This document shows positions 3,509 through 16,238 of a stretch of 21,552 nucleotides of DNA, piece after piece. The notes under the pieces were generated by a model that worked only from the letters and a program-made list of their open reading frames with translations, did not search any database and was not told the DNA's origin. Location of the stretch: IMG/VR virus record IMGVR_UViG_3300037963_002391, positions 1 through 21,552 of that record; one strand, given 5' to 3'. A program made the position numbers and the translations under genes. Source of the stretch: a virus. The first letter of the stretch is position 1; each line of letters starts with the position of its first letter.

Positions 3509-4450
3509 TTAGGTGTAATAAGTTACCTCACCTAAAAGTCCGATTTGTACACCAGCTTTCCATCTTGCAACAAATCTTACATTTTGATCACCTAAAGTAT
3601 CTGAAGTATCAATTAATCTTAATTCAGATAAATCACCAAGAATACCACATCCAAAAAATAAATTTGAAATTTGTGTACACATCATTTTGTTAGCTGGCAT
3701 ACCAGGTGCTAAGAAAATTGGAATACCATCAAAAGTAAGTCCACCACCGTTATACCATTGTGTCATTTTATCATCAGTACCAGCTGAACCAGTTAATGCA
3801 AAACCACCAAGGGCTCTTACATAAGCTTGGAATACTGCGTTACCAACGTAAATTCTTAAATCTTCTTTATCTAAGATTGCTGGTGTGTTAGTAGCAACAT
3901 GGTCAACTACTTTTCCTAATTCTGTGATAACATTTGATGCAGTAACAGTTGTACCAACTACAATAGCACCACCAGCTAAATCAGAGATGTTATTTCCAGC
4001 AATAGTTGTAAAACCGTCAAACTCACCAGCATTGGCATTAACACCAGCCCAAATGTTCGTTTCTGTCTTAGCTGCGATTTTAGCAACATACTGTTGTACA
4101 ATAAAATCTGCAAATGATTTTGGTAAACTCTGATTAATTACAGAATAACCCATTTCAGCTGATTGCCAAGATTGAGCAAATGTTTTTTTACATTCTGTTT
4201 TATTTACTTGGAATTCTTCTACTTCAAGTACTCTTTCAGTGAGTGTTAAAGTTCCAGCATCAGTGTAATCACATCCTGCGTTTACTATTAAATCATCACC
4301 CATTACTGATTTTTGCATTACTTCTTTATAAGCAATGTTTGGAAGTATTGTTACACCCCCGTTGTCAAGTGTTTTTCCACTTGTTAATGCTGCTGCTATG
4401 TATTTATCCTTAAATTCACCAGCATATGTAGTTGTTAAACTTGTTGCCAT
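3509..4450 (-). CDS. Major capsid protein
   Basis: 313 aa, Ala/Gly/Thr-rich, starting MATSLTTTYAGEFKDKYIAAAL. The size, the composition and the place immediately after an acidic scaffold-like gene and near an XkdF-type protease identify it as the shell protein, which would adopt the HK97 fold. Typical features are a long segment around residues 30-120 (PNIAYKEVMQKSVMGDDLI, then a KTFAQSWQSAEMGYSV stretch) and a C-terminal strand region ending NVRFVARWKAGVQIGLLGEVTYYT (about 290-313). Leader AAACAAATAAAAATG, shared with the Cys-rich gene at 5125-5271, is probably a strong initiation signal for this host type. No clear cleavage site is visible to me. Confidence 0.85.
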   Translation of the reverse strand: MATSLTTTYAGEFKDKYIAAALTSGKTLDNGGVTILPNIAYKEVMQKSVMGDDLIVNAGCDYTDAGTLTLTERVLEVEEFQVNKTECKKTFAQSWQSAEMGYSVINQSLPKSFADFIVQQYVAKIAAKTETNIWAGVNANAGEFDGFTTIAGNNISDLAGGAIVVGTTVTASNVITELGKVVDHVATNTPAILDKEDLRIYVGNAVFQAYVRALGGFALTGSAGTDDKMTQWYNGGGLTFDGIPIFLAPGMPANKMMCTQISNLFFGCGILGDLSELRLIDTSDTLGDQNVRFVARWKAGVQIGLLGEVTYYT

Positions 4451-4462
4451 TTTTATTTGTTT

Positions 4463-5068
4463 TTAGTTATTTAATTTTTCGTATATCCTTTGTTGTAATG
4501 TCTTAGGATAATTAGTTTTCTTTAATGTAAACTTACTTTCATTTGTTGCTTCTGGGTTGTGTTTAACTGGTTTAGTTACTTCTTCTTTAGTTTCTTCTGA
4601 AAGTTCTGCTGATGCTTCTTCTTTTACATCTTCAGGTGCATCAACTTTATCTGCTTTAAGGTCAGCAATGGCATCTTCTAAATTTTTGATACGCTTCTCC
4701 ATTCCTCGCCAATCAAAAACTGCTGCTTCTTCATCTAATTTTTCTTCAGCCATTTCTTCTTTTGTTTCTTTCATATCTTCTTCTTTTGCGGGTACATCAT
4801 CAGACACGTCTCTCATGTCTGCTATAATTCCTTCTTCTTCAACTACTAAAAGTTTACCATCTTCAAGTTGGTATTCACCAACTGGCATTGCAATTCTTTC
4901 ATCATCTGATTTAATAAATACTGCTTCACCTTTTTTAAATTCTTCAGCTTCAATTATTGTTCCATTGTCAAGTTTCATTTGAGTTAATTCAACTTCTCTA
5001 ACTTCTTCAGTTAGTTCAATTCCACCAATAATGGTTTTAATTTTATTTAACATGTCATTTGCTTTCAT
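4463..5068 (-). CDS. Scaffold-like acidic protein
   Basis: 201 aa, strongly acidic. The N-terminal third has short strands (LTQMKLDNGTIIEAEEF, then AMPVGEYQLEDGKLLVVEEEGII around 60-82). The middle (about 90-175) is Glu/Lys-rich, low-complexity and contains a short coiled coil (MEKRIKNLEDAIADLKADK near 123-141). The C-terminus is basic (KFTLKKTNYPKTLQQRIYEKLNN). It lies just upstream of the capsid gene, 12 nt away, which is where capsid assembly scaffolds sit. It would hold capsid subunits during procapsid assembly and then be removed, perhaps by the neighbouring protease. It is the first gene after one copy of the candidate late promoter. Confidence 0.7.
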   Translation of the reverse strand: MKANDMLNKIKTIIGGIELTEEVREVELTQMKLDNGTIIEAEEFKKGEAVFIKSDDERIAMPVGEYQLEDGKLLVVEEEGIIADMRDVSDDVPAKEEDMKETKEEMAEEKLDEEAAVFDWRGMEKRIKNLEDAIADLKADKVDAPEDVKEEASAELSEETKEEVTKPVKHNPEATNESKFTLKKTNYPKTLQQRIYEKLNN

Positions 5069-5103
5069 ACTATATAAATGTTTTTTTTTTCAACTTGTTA
5101 TAC
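5069..5103 (-). promoter_or_regulatory. Candidate late promoter, copy B (upstream of scaffold-capsid)
   Basis: Read on the minus strand the element is TATAACAAGTTG, then ten A, then CATTTATATAGT directly before the scaffold ATG. It matches the element at 13712-13746 at all but five positions over 38 bases including the ATG. Both copies sit in intergenic gaps at the head of a structural gene block. It does not show the usual Bacteroidota TAnnTTTG -7 box, so recognition by the phage sigma-like factor is plausible but inferred. It could instead be a translation-enhancing A-rich leader. Confidence 0.5.
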
Positions 5104-5124
5104 CTTTTTTTTATTTTTTTTTAA

Positions 5125-5271
5125 TTATGCTTGTGTTTTGCCTATTCCTTGCGCCCTTAATGAGCCATCACAACATTTAACACTATATGTATTGTCTTTA
5201 CATAAACAACCTCTTTTACCGCCCTTTGGTGAGGTTCTACTTTTTTCACCTCTTTTTAGTTTATTTCTCAT
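5125..5271 (-). CDS. Cys-rich 48-aa microprotein
   Basis: The start ATG at 5271 opens a 48-aa frame ending at TAA 5125-5127. It is 2 nt after the stop of the protease gene, so it is part of that operon. The N-terminal half is basic (MRNKLKRGEKSRTSPKGGKR). The C-terminal half contains GCLC (21-24) and KCCDGSLRAQGIG (32-44), giving four Cys in a CxC...CC layout that could bind a metal. I remember close GCLC...YSxKCCDGSLxxQGIG microproteins beside structural genes in several flavobacterial phages, without known function. Leader AAACAAATAAAAATG is the same as for the capsid gene, suggesting high expression. Confidence 0.75.
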   Translation of the reverse strand: MRNKLKRGEKSRTSPKGGKRGCLCKDNTYSVKCCDGSLRAQGIGKTQA

Positions 5272-8262: not shown

Positions 8263-10634
8263 GATGTTGGTTCATTTAATAATTCAAGTGATGATTCACC
8301 TGTTTGTAGTTTAGTTGTTATTTTATTTATAGTAAATGCCCTTCCATTTACAAATACTTTATCAGCTAAAGAATACGTCAATAAAAACTTTAATGGCAGT
8401 ATGGCTTTATATTTAAATATTCTTGTTTTAGTATTGAATACTCTTACTATATAATTTTCATAAAACTTTTGAAATAAAGAATTATTATCACCACCATAGT
8501 CAGTTAATGTATAACTATTTATTTCACTTCCAAAGTTTAAATTAAATGCTGGTGCAGTTGATGCAGTTCCTAATTCATTTGCATTGTGTGGCATCCAATA
8601 ATCAGTTAAGGAATATCTTGTACCAGCATCAGCAAGTGTGCCATCATCTTTTCTAACTGTATCAACAAAATTTATAGGGGTGCTTATTGATGTTTGATAA
8701 ACTCCATAAAATAATAATGGTTTTGGTATTACTTCATCATCTGATTCATTTACGCTTAAACCATATTGTACAGATGTATATGAATCATCATCTAAATCTT
8801 GTAACCTTTCATATAACATATGTCCAAATGGTGTTTCAACTTTATATGTTGCGCCCCTACTTGCGTTTGCTTGATAATCTAATTTGCCATATCTATTGTT
8901 GTGAATATTGCTATAAGCTAATGCAAGTTTAGTTTTTGGTTCAGGGTATTCAAGTATTATATCTGAAAATGGAAGTGCTTCACTTACTGTATTTTCATCT
9001 GTTTTAACATATTGGCTAATATCATGAGTAGTAGTAGAATCACCATAAAAATCATCTAATGTTTTAACTACTATTTCATCACTATCATTTAGAAATGCAG
9101 TCAAATTAAATTGTTTAAATATACCTTTTAAAAAATCTAATACTTTTATTTCTGGTATTTCTTGAGTTGGTGCAAATTCTTGCGCAGTAGCAGCAATAGT
9201 TGATGTTGATGTATGTTTTGCAGAATATAAAAAACTTGCAGCGTTATCTAATACAAATGTTTCTATTTCAGATGTAAAAACAAAATTAGAATCACAAGTT
9301 ACTCTTGTTACTAATTCTTTTTTTTCACCTATTGCCATAGGATCAGTAGATAAATCAAAAACTACACCGACATTGTTTGTGCCACTTGTGGTTAAGGTTG
9401 CTTCTATTGTATCTGTTAAAGCATCAATAATTTCAACAGTATAGTTTGTTGATGTATAAGTTGCAGTAGGTATTACTTTAGTAATGTATTGAAAAGTTGT
9501 TAAATCTGGGGTTTTTTCTATTGTATATTTACCATTGTTAAATAAAGCTTGTGATGTTGCGCCAAAATATGTACAAGAACCAGTAGTTACATCAACACAA
9601 TTAAAAGTTGTGTTTCCAGTAATATCAAATACAAAACTATATTTACCTATTTTTCTATTTAGCCATAAATACAAATTACTAAATTCAGTTGAATCAAAAA
9701 ATTCACTTGATTTAAAAGTGATTCCGTATTGTTCTTCAATTGCTTTAATTATTAAACTTGCTTTTATAGCTGGTTTTAAATCTTCTGGGAATACACCCCT
9801 TCTGTTATATGTAGGATCAGAAGAAGCAGCCATAAAAATATTGCCATTATCACCCCTTAAAATTGTGTAATTTTCACCAGTAGACATTATATCACTACTT
9901 AATGTTAAAGTATTGTTATCATCAATAGCAGTTACAGAAGCTATTGTACTATCAGTTGTGTTTTTAACTACATCATTTACTAAAACAACATTAGTAAAAT
10001 TTTCACTTGTATCTTTTAATTTATTTGAAGCTGAAGAAGTTGCAGTACCAGAAAGAATAGTAATATTTTCACTATCATAAATATACCTTTGCTTTCTTGA
10101 TATTAATGGGTGTATAATTGCATCAGTATATGAAACAGAATCAACAGTAAAATCTAAACCTAAATTTAAACCATTTCTTACATTAGTAGTTGAATTAGCA
10201 AAAGTAAAATTATTTAACCAAGCTAAATCATCTAACTGGTCTTCACCAAATGTATTATTTAATGAAACTGTTTTACCAAAAAAAGTAACCTTGTAAACAC
10301 TTGGTTTATTGTTCTTCATCTTAACTTCTTGAAGTTGTATTTTACCGCTTTTAAAAGGTTGATAATTTAGTTCTATAATTGCTTCACTTTGTATGTTGCT
10401 ATCAAAACCATCTATGTCAGGATTGTACCAATGTTGAAATAGTTTATTATTAATCTTAGATGCTGGTAAACTAAATGTTTGTGAAAAATCTGTAAACACT
10501 TTGTCAATATCTCTTACATCTTGAATGACTTGTGTTAGTGTTACATTTTCATCACTAAACATGTCTACTTTCACATAATCTTGTGTAACATTGTTTCTAA
10601 ATTGTGGCCTGATATATAATATTAATTCTTGCAT
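8259..10634 (-). CDS. Large tail-associated protein
   Basis: 791 aa, beta-rich, Ser/Thr/Asn-rich. The N-terminal 110 residues (VTLTQVIQDVRDIDKVFTDF, then SQTFSLPASKINNKLFQHWYN) form the conserved start I know from tail proteins of Bacteroidota siphophages. Residues about 193-259 look like an inserted beta module (TATSSASNKLKDTSENFTN ... TLTLSSDIMSTGENYTI). The middle has IPEIKVLDFLKGIFKQFNLTAF near 500, again typical of these tail proteins. The start ATG shares one base with the previous stop (TAATG), so the pair is coupled. Likely part of the distal tail or tail tip; no enzymatic motif seen. Confidence 0.7.
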   Translation of the reverse strand: MQELILYIRPQFRNNVTQDYVKVDMFSDENVTLTQVIQDVRDIDKVFTDFSQTFSLPASKINNKLFQHWYNPDIDGFDSNIQSEAIIELNYQPFKSGKIQLQEVKMKNNKPSVYKVTFFGKTVSLNNTFGEDQLDDLAWLNNFTFANSTTNVRNGLNLGLDFTVDSVSYTDAIIHPLISRKQRYIYDSENITILSGTATSSASNKLKDTSENFTNVVLVNDVVKNTTDSTIASVTAIDDNNTLTLSSDIMSTGENYTILRGDNGNIFMAASSDPTYNRRGVFPEDLKPAIKASLIIKAIEEQYGITFKSSEFFDSTEFSNLYLWLNRKIGKYSFVFDITGNTTFNCVDVTTGSCTYFGATSQALFNNGKYTIEKTPDLTTFQYITKVIPTATYTSTNYTVEIIDALTDTIEATLTTSGTNNVGVVFDLSTDPMAIGEKKELVTRVTCDSNFVFTSEIETFVLDNAASFLYSAKHTSTSTIAATAQEFAPTQEIPEIKVLDFLKGIFKQFNLTAFLNDSDEIVVKTLDDFYGDSTTTHDISQYVKTDENTVSEALPFSDIILEYPEPKTKLALAYSNIHNNRYGKLDYQANASRGATYKVETPFGHMLYERLQDLDDDSYTSVQYGLSVNESDDEVIPKPLLFYGVYQTSISTPINFVDTVRKDDGTLADAGTRYSLTDYWMPHNANELGTASTAPAFNLNFGSEINSYTLTDYGGDNNSLFQKFYENYIVRVFNTKTRIFKYKAILPLKFLLTYSLADKVFVNGRAFTINKITTKLQTGESSLELLNEPTS

Positions 10635-12882: not shown

Positions 12883-13129
12883 TTCTTTTTAAAATACTTT
12901 CTTCTACTTTTGCTTTGTCCTTTTCAAATGATAACATATACAAACATTGATGCAACTTTAATTTAGTTACTTCTGATATGTTTCTAATATCTCCCTTACT
13001 GAGGGCGTAAATGGATTGATACCAACCCCACTTTTTAAGGAAGCTATCAGATGTGGTGGCAATTTCACGTCCTGTTGATTCTGCAAATAGTTCACTATAT
13101 GTGTCAATAATTCTTTTTTTAAATTCCAA
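12869..13129 (-). CDS. -1 frame extension of the tail-chaperone-like gene
   Basis: This open frame of about 86 codons overlaps the end of the gene at 12967-13611 by 163 nt. It has no ATG near its beginning; the only candidate start is TTG at 13129, inside a slippery run, and the frame stays open upstream to a TAA at 13184-13186 without any ATG. The product contains FLKKWGWYQSIYALSKGDI (about 31-48) and LHQCLYMLSFEKDKAKVEE, a well-formed domain. The best explanation is a C-terminal domain reached by a -1 ribosomal frameshift, giving a fusion of about 247 aa, as with lambda G/GT. An independent TTG-started protein is the weaker alternative. Confidence 0.7.
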   Translation of the reverse strand: MEFKKRIIDTYSELFAESTGREIATTSDSFLKKWGWYQSIYALSKGDIRNISEVTKLKLHQCLYMLSFEKDKAKVEESILKRNAKG

Positions 13130-13611
13130 AAAAAAAGTAGTGAAGCCATAACAACATCTAAAGGCATATTCTTCATATTGTATTTACTTGCAGTTTCATA
13201 TTCTTCAATTCTATATTGCCCTTTTCTTTTAAATGATATTGGCCTAAATAAAACGCCCATTGCTTTATCCATTGTTTCCCATTCATTAAGATAATTATCT
13301 AAATCAACATATTCCCCAAAAGTCATATCATCTAATTTAGGAATGAATCCAAATTCTTTTTCATTCATTCTAAACCTATCTTTAAATGCTGGTTTATCTT
13401 CAAATATTTTATTTAAGTCAAAAGTAATTTTATTGATATCTGTTACTTTCATTCTTAAAGCATCTATTAACCTTGTTTTACAAAATATCTCTATCATCTT
13501 CTGTTGGTAAAAAGTATTCATTTCTTTGCCATCAGTTATTTTAAGCCATTTTTGATATTGGCCTAATGTAATTTCATTTAGTGATTCTGGTATAGTTAGT
13601 TTAATTGCCAT
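12967..13611 (-). CDS. Tail assembly chaperone-like protein (0-frame product)
   Basis: 214 aa, starting MAIKLTIPESLNEITLGQYQKWLKI. Segments FGFIPKLDDMTFGEYVDLDNY (about 86-106) and AMGVLFRPISFK (about 117-128) are typical of a conserved Bacteroidota phage protein that I associate with tail assembly. At Trp162 the coding frame crosses the T9 run (13128-13136) and, 8 nt later, an A7 run, where the ribosome can slip into the -1 frame. The 0-frame reading continues for about 53 residues to its own stop. The two-product layout is the hallmark of tail assembly chaperones, which coat the tape measure during tail building. The gene is separated from the tape measure by five genes, farther than in lambda. 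Confidence 0.65.
   Translation of the reverse strand: MAIKLTIPESLNEITLGQYQKWLKITDGKEMNTFYQQKMIEIFCKTRLIDALRMKVTDINKITFDLNKIFEDKPAFKDRFRMNEKEFGFIPKLDDMTFGEYVDLDNYLNEWETMDKAMGVLFRPISFKRKGQYRIEEYETASKYNMKNMPLDVVMASLLFFWNLKKELLTHIVNYLQNQQDVKLPPHLIASLKSGVGINPFTPSVREILETYQK
13114..13136 (-). other. Candidate -1 frameshift site (T9 and A7 slippery runs)
   Basis: On the minus strand, CTTTTTTTTTGG (T9 at 13136-13128) is followed by AATTTAAAAAAAG (A7 at 13120-13114). In the 0 frame the codons read CTT TTT TTT TGG AAT TTA AAA AAA GAA. Slipping back one base at TTT TTT yields TTG GAA TTT AAA; slipping at A AAA AAA yields AGA ATT ATT. Both enter the same downstream open frame. Confidence 0.65.
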
Positions 13612-13612
13612 A

Positions 13613-13711
13613 TTAAAAAAGGTTAGTTGGTGTAAGTGCTTTAATACTTAATTTAAGTTTTTCTTGTTCAATATATTTAATGTATTTAATTATCTTTTTA
13701 ATAAGCTTCAT
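13613..13711 (-). CDS. 32-aa basic micro-ORF after the candidate promoter
   Basis: The ATG at 13711 follows the candidate late promoter directly, and the frame ends at TAA 13613-13615, one base before the ATG of the tail-chaperone-like gene. The peptide starts MKLIKKIIKYIKYIEQEK and is basic and amphipathic. Its exact fit between promoter and next gene favours a real leader gene or a coupling peptide. It could also be chance in AT-rich DNA. Function unknown. Confidence 0.45.
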   Translation of the reverse strand: MKLIKKIIKYIKYIEQEKLKLSIKALTPTNLF

Positions 13712-13746
13712 ATTATATAAATGTTTTTTTTTTGACTTTGTTATAT
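13712..13746 (-). promoter_or_regulatory. Candidate late promoter, copy A (upstream of tail-gene block)
   Basis: On the minus strand TATAACAAAGTC, then ten A, then CATTTATATAAT precedes the ATG at 13711. The element agrees with the copy at 5069-5103 at 33 of 38 positions including the start codon, with identical A-run length and spacing. It lies in the gap between terminase large subunit and the structural genes. It lacks an obvious host-type TAnnTTTG box. Confidence 0.5.
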
Positions 13747-13765: not shown

Positions 13766-14974
13766 TTAATAATAGTGGTATTCACCTTTATTTGGGTTTT
13801 GTAATTGATAGCTAACTGCATATCTTAGTGCATCAATAGCATGATTGAATTTATCTATTGGAGTTTGTGATTTCTTTTCTAACCAACAGTAATTATTAAG
13901 TTCTTTAATTAAATCAGTGCTTTCTTCATCAATAATTAAATCATAATCTTGCAATAAGCTAATGCCATAAGTTATACTGCCTTGGCCTTTTATTGCTGGA
14001 ACAATATTACAACCTCTACTAAGTTCATTAATTAATCTTGGTTCTGCTGAATCACCCACTATTAAATCATCACCAGCAAATTTTTTATTTAATTCTAATA
14101 TTTGACTTGTTGTTAATTTAGGTTTATAAAAACACAATTCAATGTATATAATTTTATTTGCTTTATCTATGCTTGTTTTTACTAAACTTGATTCATCTTG
14201 TGCAAATCCATAATCTTGGCCAAAAATTATTTTACCTACTTGCTTAAACTTTCCTATTTTCCAATTAGTAAATATTACACCTTCTGCTTTATCTAACCAT
14301 GCACCAAGTATAGTGTGCTTGTATCTACTTGGCCTACGTTCTTTCATTCTTTCTATTTGCTCAATATAACTTTTACTAAGGTTTTCAATGTTATCTAAAT
14401 AAGTTGTGTGAATGTATGTTGTATCATCTTTAGTTATGTTGCTTCCAGCTTCTACACCTTTTGCTTCAAACCATCTTTGATATATAAAGTTTTCTTTAGT
14501 TGTTGGATTGAGTATTAATATTACTCTATTGTCTAAACCTTTTTGACGTACTGATAAATCTATTTTATCAAACATATCTTCATCAGTCATTTCTTCTGCT
14601 TCATCAAATACCCATGTTGTTATGCCTTGTAATGATTTAAGATTTGCAGTTTGGTCTCCTGAACTTGTTTTAATACCTCTAAATAGTATTTTAGATTTAG
14701 TTACTTTGTTTAACACTTCATCTTTAGTTATTACAAAGTCATCTGTTTTTCTTAGTAATTCTATTTTTTCTATGAATTCAGGAATAATTGATATTGATGC
14801 AGAACGCAAAGTATATCTTGTAAATAGAATAGTATGTCCAGCTTCATATGTTAGTAATAGTAAAAATGTATTAATAGCAAAGGATTTGCCAGAACCCCTT
14901 CCACCAGTCACAATAAAATAACGTGAATCAGATTTTTCAAATATTTTGTATTTATTGCTTAAACTTAATTGCAC
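13766..14974 (-). CDS. terL: Terminase large subunit
   Basis: 402 aa, PBSX/XtmB-like. The N-terminal ATPase has Walker A GGRGSGKS (24-31), Walker B WVFDEAEE (121-128) and a coupling segment LILNPT (153-158). The C-terminal nuclease of RNase H fold shows the three expected acidic positions in FGQDYGF (Asp254), VGDSAEP (Asp308) and HAIDALRYA (Asp381). It pumps DNA into the prohead through the portal and cuts concatemers. Full length for this family. It overlaps the small subunit gene by 23 nt and ends 54 nt before the first structural gene, in the gap holding the candidate promoter. The most secure call in the window. Confidence 0.96.
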   Translation of the reverse strand: MQLSLSNKYKIFEKSDSRYFIVTGGRGSGKSFAINTFLLLLTYEAGHTILFTRYTLRSASISIIPEFIEKIELLRKTDDFVITKDEVLNKVTKSKILFRGIKTSSGDQTANLKSLQGITTWVFDEAEEMTDEDMFDKIDLSVRQKGLDNRVILILNPTTKENFIYQRWFEAKGVEAGSNITKDDTTYIHTTYLDNIENLSKSYIEQIERMKERRPSRYKHTILGAWLDKAEGVIFTNWKIGKFKQVGKIIFGQDYGFAQDESSLVKTSIDKANKIIYIELCFYKPKLTTSQILELNKKFAGDDLIVGDSAEPRLINELSRGCNIVPAIKGQGSITYGISLLQDYDLIIDEESTDLIKELNNYCWLEKKSQTPIDKFNHAIDALRYAVSYQLQNPNKGEYHYY

Positions 14975-15408: not shown

Positions 15409-15748
15409 AGGTTTTGTATAAAGTTTTCATTTGGTTTATTAAGTCCCTTACACAACTCCCACAGCTTGATGATTGTTTTTTGGCATTAAATACTCTATTG
15501 AATATTTTTAATAGTTCTTTTTGTTCTATGTTGGTTAATGTGTTTCTATGTTTGCTGAAGAATTCTTTTAAATAGTTGTATTCATCTTCTATTAAGCATT
15601 TAGCATTTTTATATGGAAATAGTTTATTTAATTTTTCTTTTCTGGCTTCACAACCGCAATCTTCACCCAATATGAATTTAGCTACTTTATCTATTCCTGT
15701 TGCTTTAGTTATCTTTTCTATACTGTCTCCTAAACCTTTAGATTTCAT
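15383..15748 (-). CDS. Cys-motif hypothetical protein
   Basis: 121 aa. It starts MKSKGLGDSIEKITKATGID, a stretch I recall as widespread in Bacteroidota phage genomes, then has CGC at 31-33, Cys51, a helical middle and CGSC at 96-99. Together these could form a four-Cys metal site, but no characterised family comes to mind. It lies between the sigma-like factor (11-nt overlap) and the terminase genes. That position, conserved in my memory of related phages, suggests a role in late-gene control or packaging. No function is assigned. Confidence 0.7.
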   Translation of the reverse strand: MKSKGLGDSIEKITKATGIDKVAKFILGEDCGCEARKEKLNKLFPYKNAKCLIEDEYNYLKEFFSKHRNTLTNIEQKELLKIFNRVFNAKKQSSSCGSCVRDLINQMKTLYKTYEEENKEK

Positions 15749-16238
15749 TTTTTAATTTTCTTTTAATTTTTTTTTTACACTTGCTAATGGTGTTTTGTAC
15801 TACTACATGACTAATTTTAGTTGCTTTGCTTAAGCTTCTAATTGTATGAAATTCTTTTCTATATAAATTAAATAGTTTTCTGTCAAACCAATAAAAAGAA
15901 TTTACTATTTCATCTATTTTCTTTTCTATATTGAATTTGTTTATTTCAGGTTCTTTAGTTTCTATTGTATGATTATCTTTTAATTCTGTTTTTAAGCTTT
16001 CTTGTTTTTGTGCTTTTAAGTACATAGTGTACAAAATTTTATTGACATATCCAATATGCGGTTTATTGTTTTGTATTGCTTTTTTAATTACCTCATCTTT
16101 TGAACCATGAATTTTTAAATACATATCTTGTACTATATCTTCAGGATCTATGTTTTCATCATTTATTAAAGCATCAACATTTGAAATCCATTTATTATGG
16201 TATTCAGCTAATAATGATAATACTTTGTTTTTATCCAC
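15738..16238 (-). CDS. Sigma-70-like RNA polymerase sigma factor
   Basis: 166 aa. Region-2-like motif NIDPEDIVQDMYLKIH (29-44) matches the core-binding DxxDxxQxxxLxx pattern of small sigma factors. Residues about 117-160 (FDRKLFNLYRKEFHTIRSLSKATKISHVVVQNTI) give a region-4-like helix-turn-helix followed by a basic tail. The start is a GTG at 16238, because no ATG occurs upstream in frame before the TAA at 16251-16253 and the next Met is inside region 2. It would direct host RNA polymerase to phage promoters. Its place just ahead of terminase and structural genes, and two near-identical candidate promoters at those blocks, suggest a late-gene switch. Promoter specificity is inferred. Confidence 0.8.
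   Translation of the reverse strand: MDKNKVLSLLAEYHNKWISNVDALINDENIDPEDIVQDMYLKIHGSKDEVIKKAIQNNKPHIGYVNKILYTMYLKAQKQESLKTELKDNHTIETKEPEINKFNIEKKIDEIVNSFYWFDRKLFNLYRKEFHTIRSLSKATKISHVVVQNTISKCKKKIKRKLKNEI

Follow-up and report, generated by a model that had tools for sequence, protein, structure and literature searches.

We conclude that the window, by which we mean the whole 21,552-nt stretch of DNA analyzed here, carries two elements that are phage late promoters of the ECF type, read by the phage's own sigma factor together with the host polymerase to give leaderless or nearly leaderless mRNAs, with a probability of about 0.75. The window is a piece of a tailed phage genome with 28.7% G+C, and essentially all of its genes lie on the minus strand. 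The phage is one of marine Bacteroidetes. Its TerL is 53% identical to the TerL of Nonlabens phages P12024L/S, and the sole cellular relative found for its MCP-like protein comes from a MAG named Bacteroidetes bacterium. The elements and the genes around them are listed in Table 1.

Table 1. Positions in the window of the two candidate late promoters and of the genes discussed
Feature	Position	Strand	Basis
MCP-like gene (313 aa), block 1	3509..4450	-	phrog_11320 match; conserved in relatives; role as MCP putative
Scaffold-like gene (201 aa), headed by site 1, with the MCP-like gene next	4463..5068	-	Lies between prohead protease (Peptidase_S78_2) and MCP-like gene; function putative
Candidate late promoter element, site 1, before the scaffold-like gene: TATAAC - 16 nt - CATTTATATAGT	5069..5102	-	Also precedes this gene in clade relatives
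Site 1 downstream (-10-like) box CATTTATATAGT, abutting ATG	5069..5080	-	Sequence
Site 1 upstream (-35-like) box TATAAC	5097..5102	-	Fixed distance to ATG in relatives
A-rich stretch upstream of site 1, possible UP-like element	5103..5128	-	A-rich in many relatives too; function putative
Post-terminase gene (214 aa, phrog_32199), first large gene of block 2	12967..13611	-	PHROG match
Micro-ORF, 32 aa, beginning at the site 2 ATG	13613..13711	-	Missing from many relatives, in which the element abuts the next gene
Candidate late promoter element, site 2, after the TerL gene: TATAAC - 16 nt - CATTTATATAAT	13712..13745	-	Identity 0.996 in 14 distinct rows
Site 2 downstream (-10-like) box CATTTATATAAT, abutting ATG	13712..13723	-	Sequence
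Site 2 upstream (-35-like) box TATAAC	13740..13745	-	Kept in relatives
TerL gene, upstream of site 2	13766..14974	-	53% identity to TerL of Nonlabens phage P12024L
Gene for an ECF-like sigma factor, the proposed reader of the elements (166 aa, GTG start)	15738..16238	-	PHROG, profile, AlphaFold/PDB fold search, homologues

Site 1 reads TATAACAAGTTGAAAAAAAAAACATTTATATAGT and runs into its ATG at 5066-5068, and site 2 reads TATAACAAAGTCAAAAAAAAAACATTTATATAAT and runs into its ATG at 13709-13711. An earlier note, made from the letters of this DNA, had placed both elements correctly. They lie on the minus strand, and a recount gave the same agreement between them, 33 of 38 positions. The note also held that the window has no third copy, and indeed the next best match to either site is 25/38. 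Agreement does extend over the 38 bp that the note gave as the length, but the element proper is 34 nt plus the ATG. Moreover, a GT that the note counted as a shared part does not line up, as the four letters that follow TATAACAA are GTTG at one site and AGTC at the other. The pair is the joint-best same-strand 36-mer repeat in the window (32/36, versus 27-30 in dinucleotide shuffles), and the other 36-mer pair at 32/36 is a case of coding paralogy. Neither the MCP-like gene nor the window's sigma gene is preceded by an element. Promoters read by the Bacteroidetes sigma-ABfr, which is used in the likely host group, have a -33 TTTG and a -7 TAnnTTTG, and unlike these, the two elements have neither box. 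The misfit with the host TAnnTTTG box that the earlier note remarked on thus holds at both sites, and the box is not enriched in the window (26 occurrences versus 33.6 expected). A scan for sigma-70 TTGACA/TATAAT sites returned fewer than in shuffles. The window by itself supports the pair of elements only moderately.

Relatives settle that the observation is real. Searching IMG/VR with the 3' portion of the element gave 26 loci, every one at the same two gene starts. Exactly two full copies were present in 10 of 12 virus records, and the remaining 2 were short contigs with one copy; because the relatives' contigs are fragments, these copy numbers are minimum counts. The earlier note had named absence from close relatives as grounds for rejection, and the element is in fact found in all relatives that cover the region. 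Over 14 distinct site 2 rows the element has an identity of 0.996, as opposed to 0.62 upstream and 0.66 downstream. The site 1 element has an identity of 0.96 versus 0.75 upstream. The upstream figures are lower bounds, as they were taken from ungapped rows. The contrast is smaller at site 1 because the gene behind it is itself well conserved. Some parts of the region vary: in two relatives (G008 and G011) the A-run is broken (AATTAAAAAA) with no change in spacer length, and the 32-aa micro-ORF is conserved after site 2 in a subset of relatives, the post-terminase gene following directly in the others.

Beyond the closest relatives, the sequence of the element changes by clade and its plan is kept. 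The plan common to the clades is an AAC box, 28 (or 29) nt, and the ATG, with a second box specific to each clade. The clade A set, to which the window belongs, is TATAAC-16-CATTTATATA; clade B has TATAACACTT..TTACATTA, clade B' has TATAACA..TACATTACTATT in three copies, clade C has TATAACGATT..CGTTTATA, clade D has TATATC-16-CGGATTA or CGACTTA, the freshwater clade E has AACAAA..AATTATA, and clade F has AACA..GTTGTATTAGTAAAT. The cultured Nonlabens phage P12024L carries six copies of AAAACA..CGTTAATA, that is, of AAAAC-N16/17-CGTTAWTA with the C 12 nt before the ATG, and its spacers are T-rich. The six ATGs behind these copies are at positions 179, 3031, 5412, 24771, 26011, and 27612 of that phage. 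A phage-specific late promoter class, as the earlier note had suggested, stands as the best explanation, but two of its details, the run of ten A and the exact CATTTATATA, are confined to clade A, where the run is a nonessential part of the spacer. At 78 of 80 post-TerL loci, a matching box lies 27-29 nt upstream of the ATG of the gene or of the micro-ORF. Across 15 contigs, TATA[AT]C lies 27-29 nt before the ATG at 23 of 603 gene starts, all of which belong to one of three genes, namely the scaffold-like gene, the post-terminase gene, and an additional gene of the structural region. Clade B differs in the register of its second box, as CATT is there two bases nearer the ATG and 18 nt rather than 16 from the AAC. 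Thus, for most of the family only the AAC and the overall distance stay constant, with ATC in clade D. At site 1 of clade C and of the relative G031, the same element is found 12-20 nt further from the ATG.

Within a phage, the elements match one another. Box identity within a phage was 0.84 versus 0.56 when permuted, with 0 of 10,000 permutations reaching the former value, and spacer identity was 0.52 versus 0.40. The sample was one phage per clade, seven with elements and 21 elements in all, with clade E left out and P12024L aligned on its ATG. The elements had been chosen by clade-specific patterns, which favors likeness of boxes within a phage, but the choice of sites at the two homologous genes is independent of pattern. 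For example, G017 has TTGCATTA at both sites, and the sister phages G014 and G031 have TTACATTA. As recombination that copied whole elements is unlikely to leave differing spacers, one reader common to the elements of each phage is the simpler account. Sigma and element sets both follow phage descent, however, and parallel divergence alone is therefore no proof of recognition.

The candidate reader is the 166-aa sigma-like protein. The earlier note had put its gene next to the elements, and it is instead separated from site 2, which lies downstream, by about 2 kb that includes the terminase genes. Homologues with 28-99% identity are encoded by 30 of 36 relative contigs and in all clades examined, and the 6 contigs with no match may be fragments. 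The window protein taken alone matches a PHROG sigma weakly (E=0.0027) and has no significant Pfam match; across the family, 17 of 19 members match the PHROG sigma family (phrog_1740), 3 match Pfam Sigma70_r2, and the alignment profile hits a sigma2 structure chain (E=0.0007). An AlphaFold model of the window protein (mean pLDDT 82) has helices at residues 3-88, a low-confidence stretch at 89-101, and helices at 102-165, and hence consists of two helical domains, sigma2 and sigma4 only, joined by a linker of under 50 residues, as in ECF sigmas. The top matches in a PDB fold search were mostly ECF sigmas, and the C-terminal domain (sigma4) fits 2h27, E. coli sigma-E region 4 on -35 DNA, with a TM score of 0.78 and 2.2 A. 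Full-length TM scores in that search were low (0.3-0.4), for which a flexible link between the two domains is a plausible reason. In P12024L, the protein gp35, annotated as a region 2 sigma, aligns to the window sigma at 21%. A tblastn search of 50,697 cultured phage records with the window sigma gave no match, and gp35 matched P12024 phages only. We note that the window sigma is read with a GTG at 16238 and that no ATG is seen at the conserved N terminus of its homologues in several relatives (G014, G016, G022, and G031).

That the elements form a promoter class is well supported; promoter activity itself, recognition by the phage sigma, and a leaderless start are inferred. In each promoter, TATAAC, with its AAC core, would serve as the -35-like box, and 16 nt of A-rich spacer would separate it from a 12-nt box that comprises CATTTATATA and two more bases and runs up to the start codon. 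The phage sigma, with its sigma2 and sigma4 domains, would join the host RNA polymerase late in infection and presumably recognize both sites, such that the capsid block and the neck/tail block are turned on together; the late timing is suggested by the genes that the elements head. ECF sigmas usually start transcription about 28-30 nt from the AAC. With the AAC 28 nt before the ATG, RNA would therefore start at or next to the A of the ATG, and the predicted start is the ATG itself or a position no more than about three bases from it. In relatives, the N termini right behind the element are conserved (MKANDMLNK and MAIKLNIPES), and therefore the ATG is real and the mRNA would be leaderless or nearly so. 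The micro-ORF ends one base before the ATG of the next gene, and thus leaderless initiation at the micro-ORF and translational coupling are possible there. At site 1 of clade C and in G031, a leader of about 12-20 nt is predicted. Most Flavobacterium johnsoniae transcripts are leadered (PMC6847099), and leaderless late mRNAs would therefore be unusual for such hosts, a peculiarity of the phage.

Other readers and other functions were weighed. The elements could be phage-specific promoters read by a host sigma, whether a host ECF or the main sigma with a phage cofactor, or by another phage polymerase, with the sigma-like protein doing something else. ECF-type boxes suit cellular ECF sigmas as well (PMC8103513), the window sigma taken alone is a weak match, and although a search for a T7-type RNA polymerase gave no signal, its controls were equally silent. 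We consider such a reader unlikely, as the boxes differ between clades and yet match within each phage, as expected of a reader that travels with the phage, and as a sigma homologue accompanies all clades examined. Alternatively, the element might be a translation initiation signal, an A-rich leader and start context for highly expressed structural genes. Most copies do run up to the ATG, and in Flavobacterium initiation is helped by adenines that precede the start (PMC6847099). A ribosome-binding signal, however, should not sit 12-20 nt further from the ATG, as the element does in two lineages, and conservation reaches 34 nt upstream with fixed spacing, CGTT is kept in P12024L and clade C, the P12024L spacers are T-rich rather than A-rich leaders, and the MCP-like gene has no element. 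Thus, a role in translation is very improbable as the explanation.

The pair might also be an operator or a DNA site for another phage protein, such as one for repression, packaging, or recombination, given that a short sequence is conserved and repeated in the neighborhood of terminase and head genes. Such a site would hardly be expected to be strand specific and to lie before coding starts with a two-box plan and, at six P12024L genes, a fixed distance to the ATG, and most copies are not beside the gene for the terminase small subunit; we give the idea little credence. Finally, two highly identical copies in one genome could be the functionless product of recent duplication or gene conversion. 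Within a phage, however, identity resides mainly in the boxes and less in the spacer, and relatives whose proteins have diverged carry the element at the same two positions, the flanks varying around a constant element. Family-wide conservation has already largely refuted duplication, which we regard as scarcely credible.

AAC and CGTT boxes separated by 16-17 nt are a published form of ECF promoter. ECF systems are marked by AAC and CGT boxes and by sigmas with sigma2 and sigma4 domains only (PMC8103513). With regard to positive autoregulation, which together with a linked anti-sigma is another mark of ECF sigmas, the window has no element before its sigma gene, and clade C has a copy within the gene. 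Acinetobacter SigAb uses GTCAAC-17-CGTT, its spacer containing a T-tract and an A/T run lying upstream, and B. subtilis SigX uses TGTAAC and CGWC (PMC12153292). Like ECF (group 4) promoters, the elements have AAC in the -35 box, with TATAAC at both window sites and at most post-TerL loci (TATATC in clade D); a spacer of 16 nt in clades A, C, and D and of 16-17 nt in P12024L, the register of clade B differing; and an A or T tract in the spacer with a possible A-rich UP element. The CGT of the ECF -10 box appears as CGTT in clade C and P12024L, which come closest to the SigAb form, whereas the window's clade reads CATTTA. Counting against the preferred reading, clades A and B read CATT and not CGT. 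Unlike known ECF promoters, the elements head phage structural genes directly at start codons.

Phage sigmas that drive late promoters include T4 gp55 and SPO1 gp28 and gp33/34, and in T4 the late promoters consist of one TATAAATA box and depend on gp33 and the sliding clamp. As in T4 and SPO1, a small phage sigma would here redirect the host polymerase to late genes that share a consensus specific to the phage. Unlike T4, there are two conserved boxes, an ECF-like sigma, and only 2-6 sites, and the elements contain no TATAAATA. Phage AR9 has a late promoter, AACA-6N-TA/G, that is attributed to a multisubunit phage polymerase and gives leaders of at least 26 nt (PMC5312081). It resembles the elements in being a phage-specific late consensus with an AAC core, whereas its short spacing, its multisubunit polymerase, and its leaders set it apart from them. 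No late promoter class for Bacteroidetes phages was found in the literature searched, and late transcription in these phages seems little studied.

A broader proposal stands, in our view, at even odds: that this is a phage family in which a phage-borne ECF-type sigma and promoters fused to start codons produce leaderless late structural mRNAs and in which the sigmas have diverged in step with their promoter sets, in seven or more clades, as matched pairs that may not cross-react. If true, the late operons of many uncultured phages, marine and freshwater, would be recognizable by one short pattern, and the family would provide natural matched sigma-promoter pairs from which to read the ECF recognition code and to build Bacteroidetes tools. 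Leaderless translation in a phylum without Shine-Dalgarno sites would also become testable in the cultured phage P12024L.

Further copies and neighbors of the element were noted in relatives. The window has a paralogous gene pair at 1-126 and 194-583 on the minus strand encoding TEL.THKVELS, and homologues of these paralogues in G014, G016, and G022 carry the late element at their head. In the clade C phages G012, G018, G024, G027, and G029, a third promoter-like copy, TATAACGATTCTTTAAATAAAGCGTTTATATATA, lies inside the sigma coding sequence; at locus L186, for example, it spans 9841-9874 in a sigma gene at 9661-10167 and ends 2 nt before an in-frame ATGATG. Synonymous conservation of this copy is high, yet not unique within that gene, and the copy could be an internal promoter for the terminase genes or for a shortened sigma. 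Finally, many clade C phages (L050-L057 and L069-L099) have a terminator-like hairpin with AGTCGGCAAAAGAGCG and a T-run directly before the site 2 element, and after that hairpin comes TATATTTG, a host-like -7 box.
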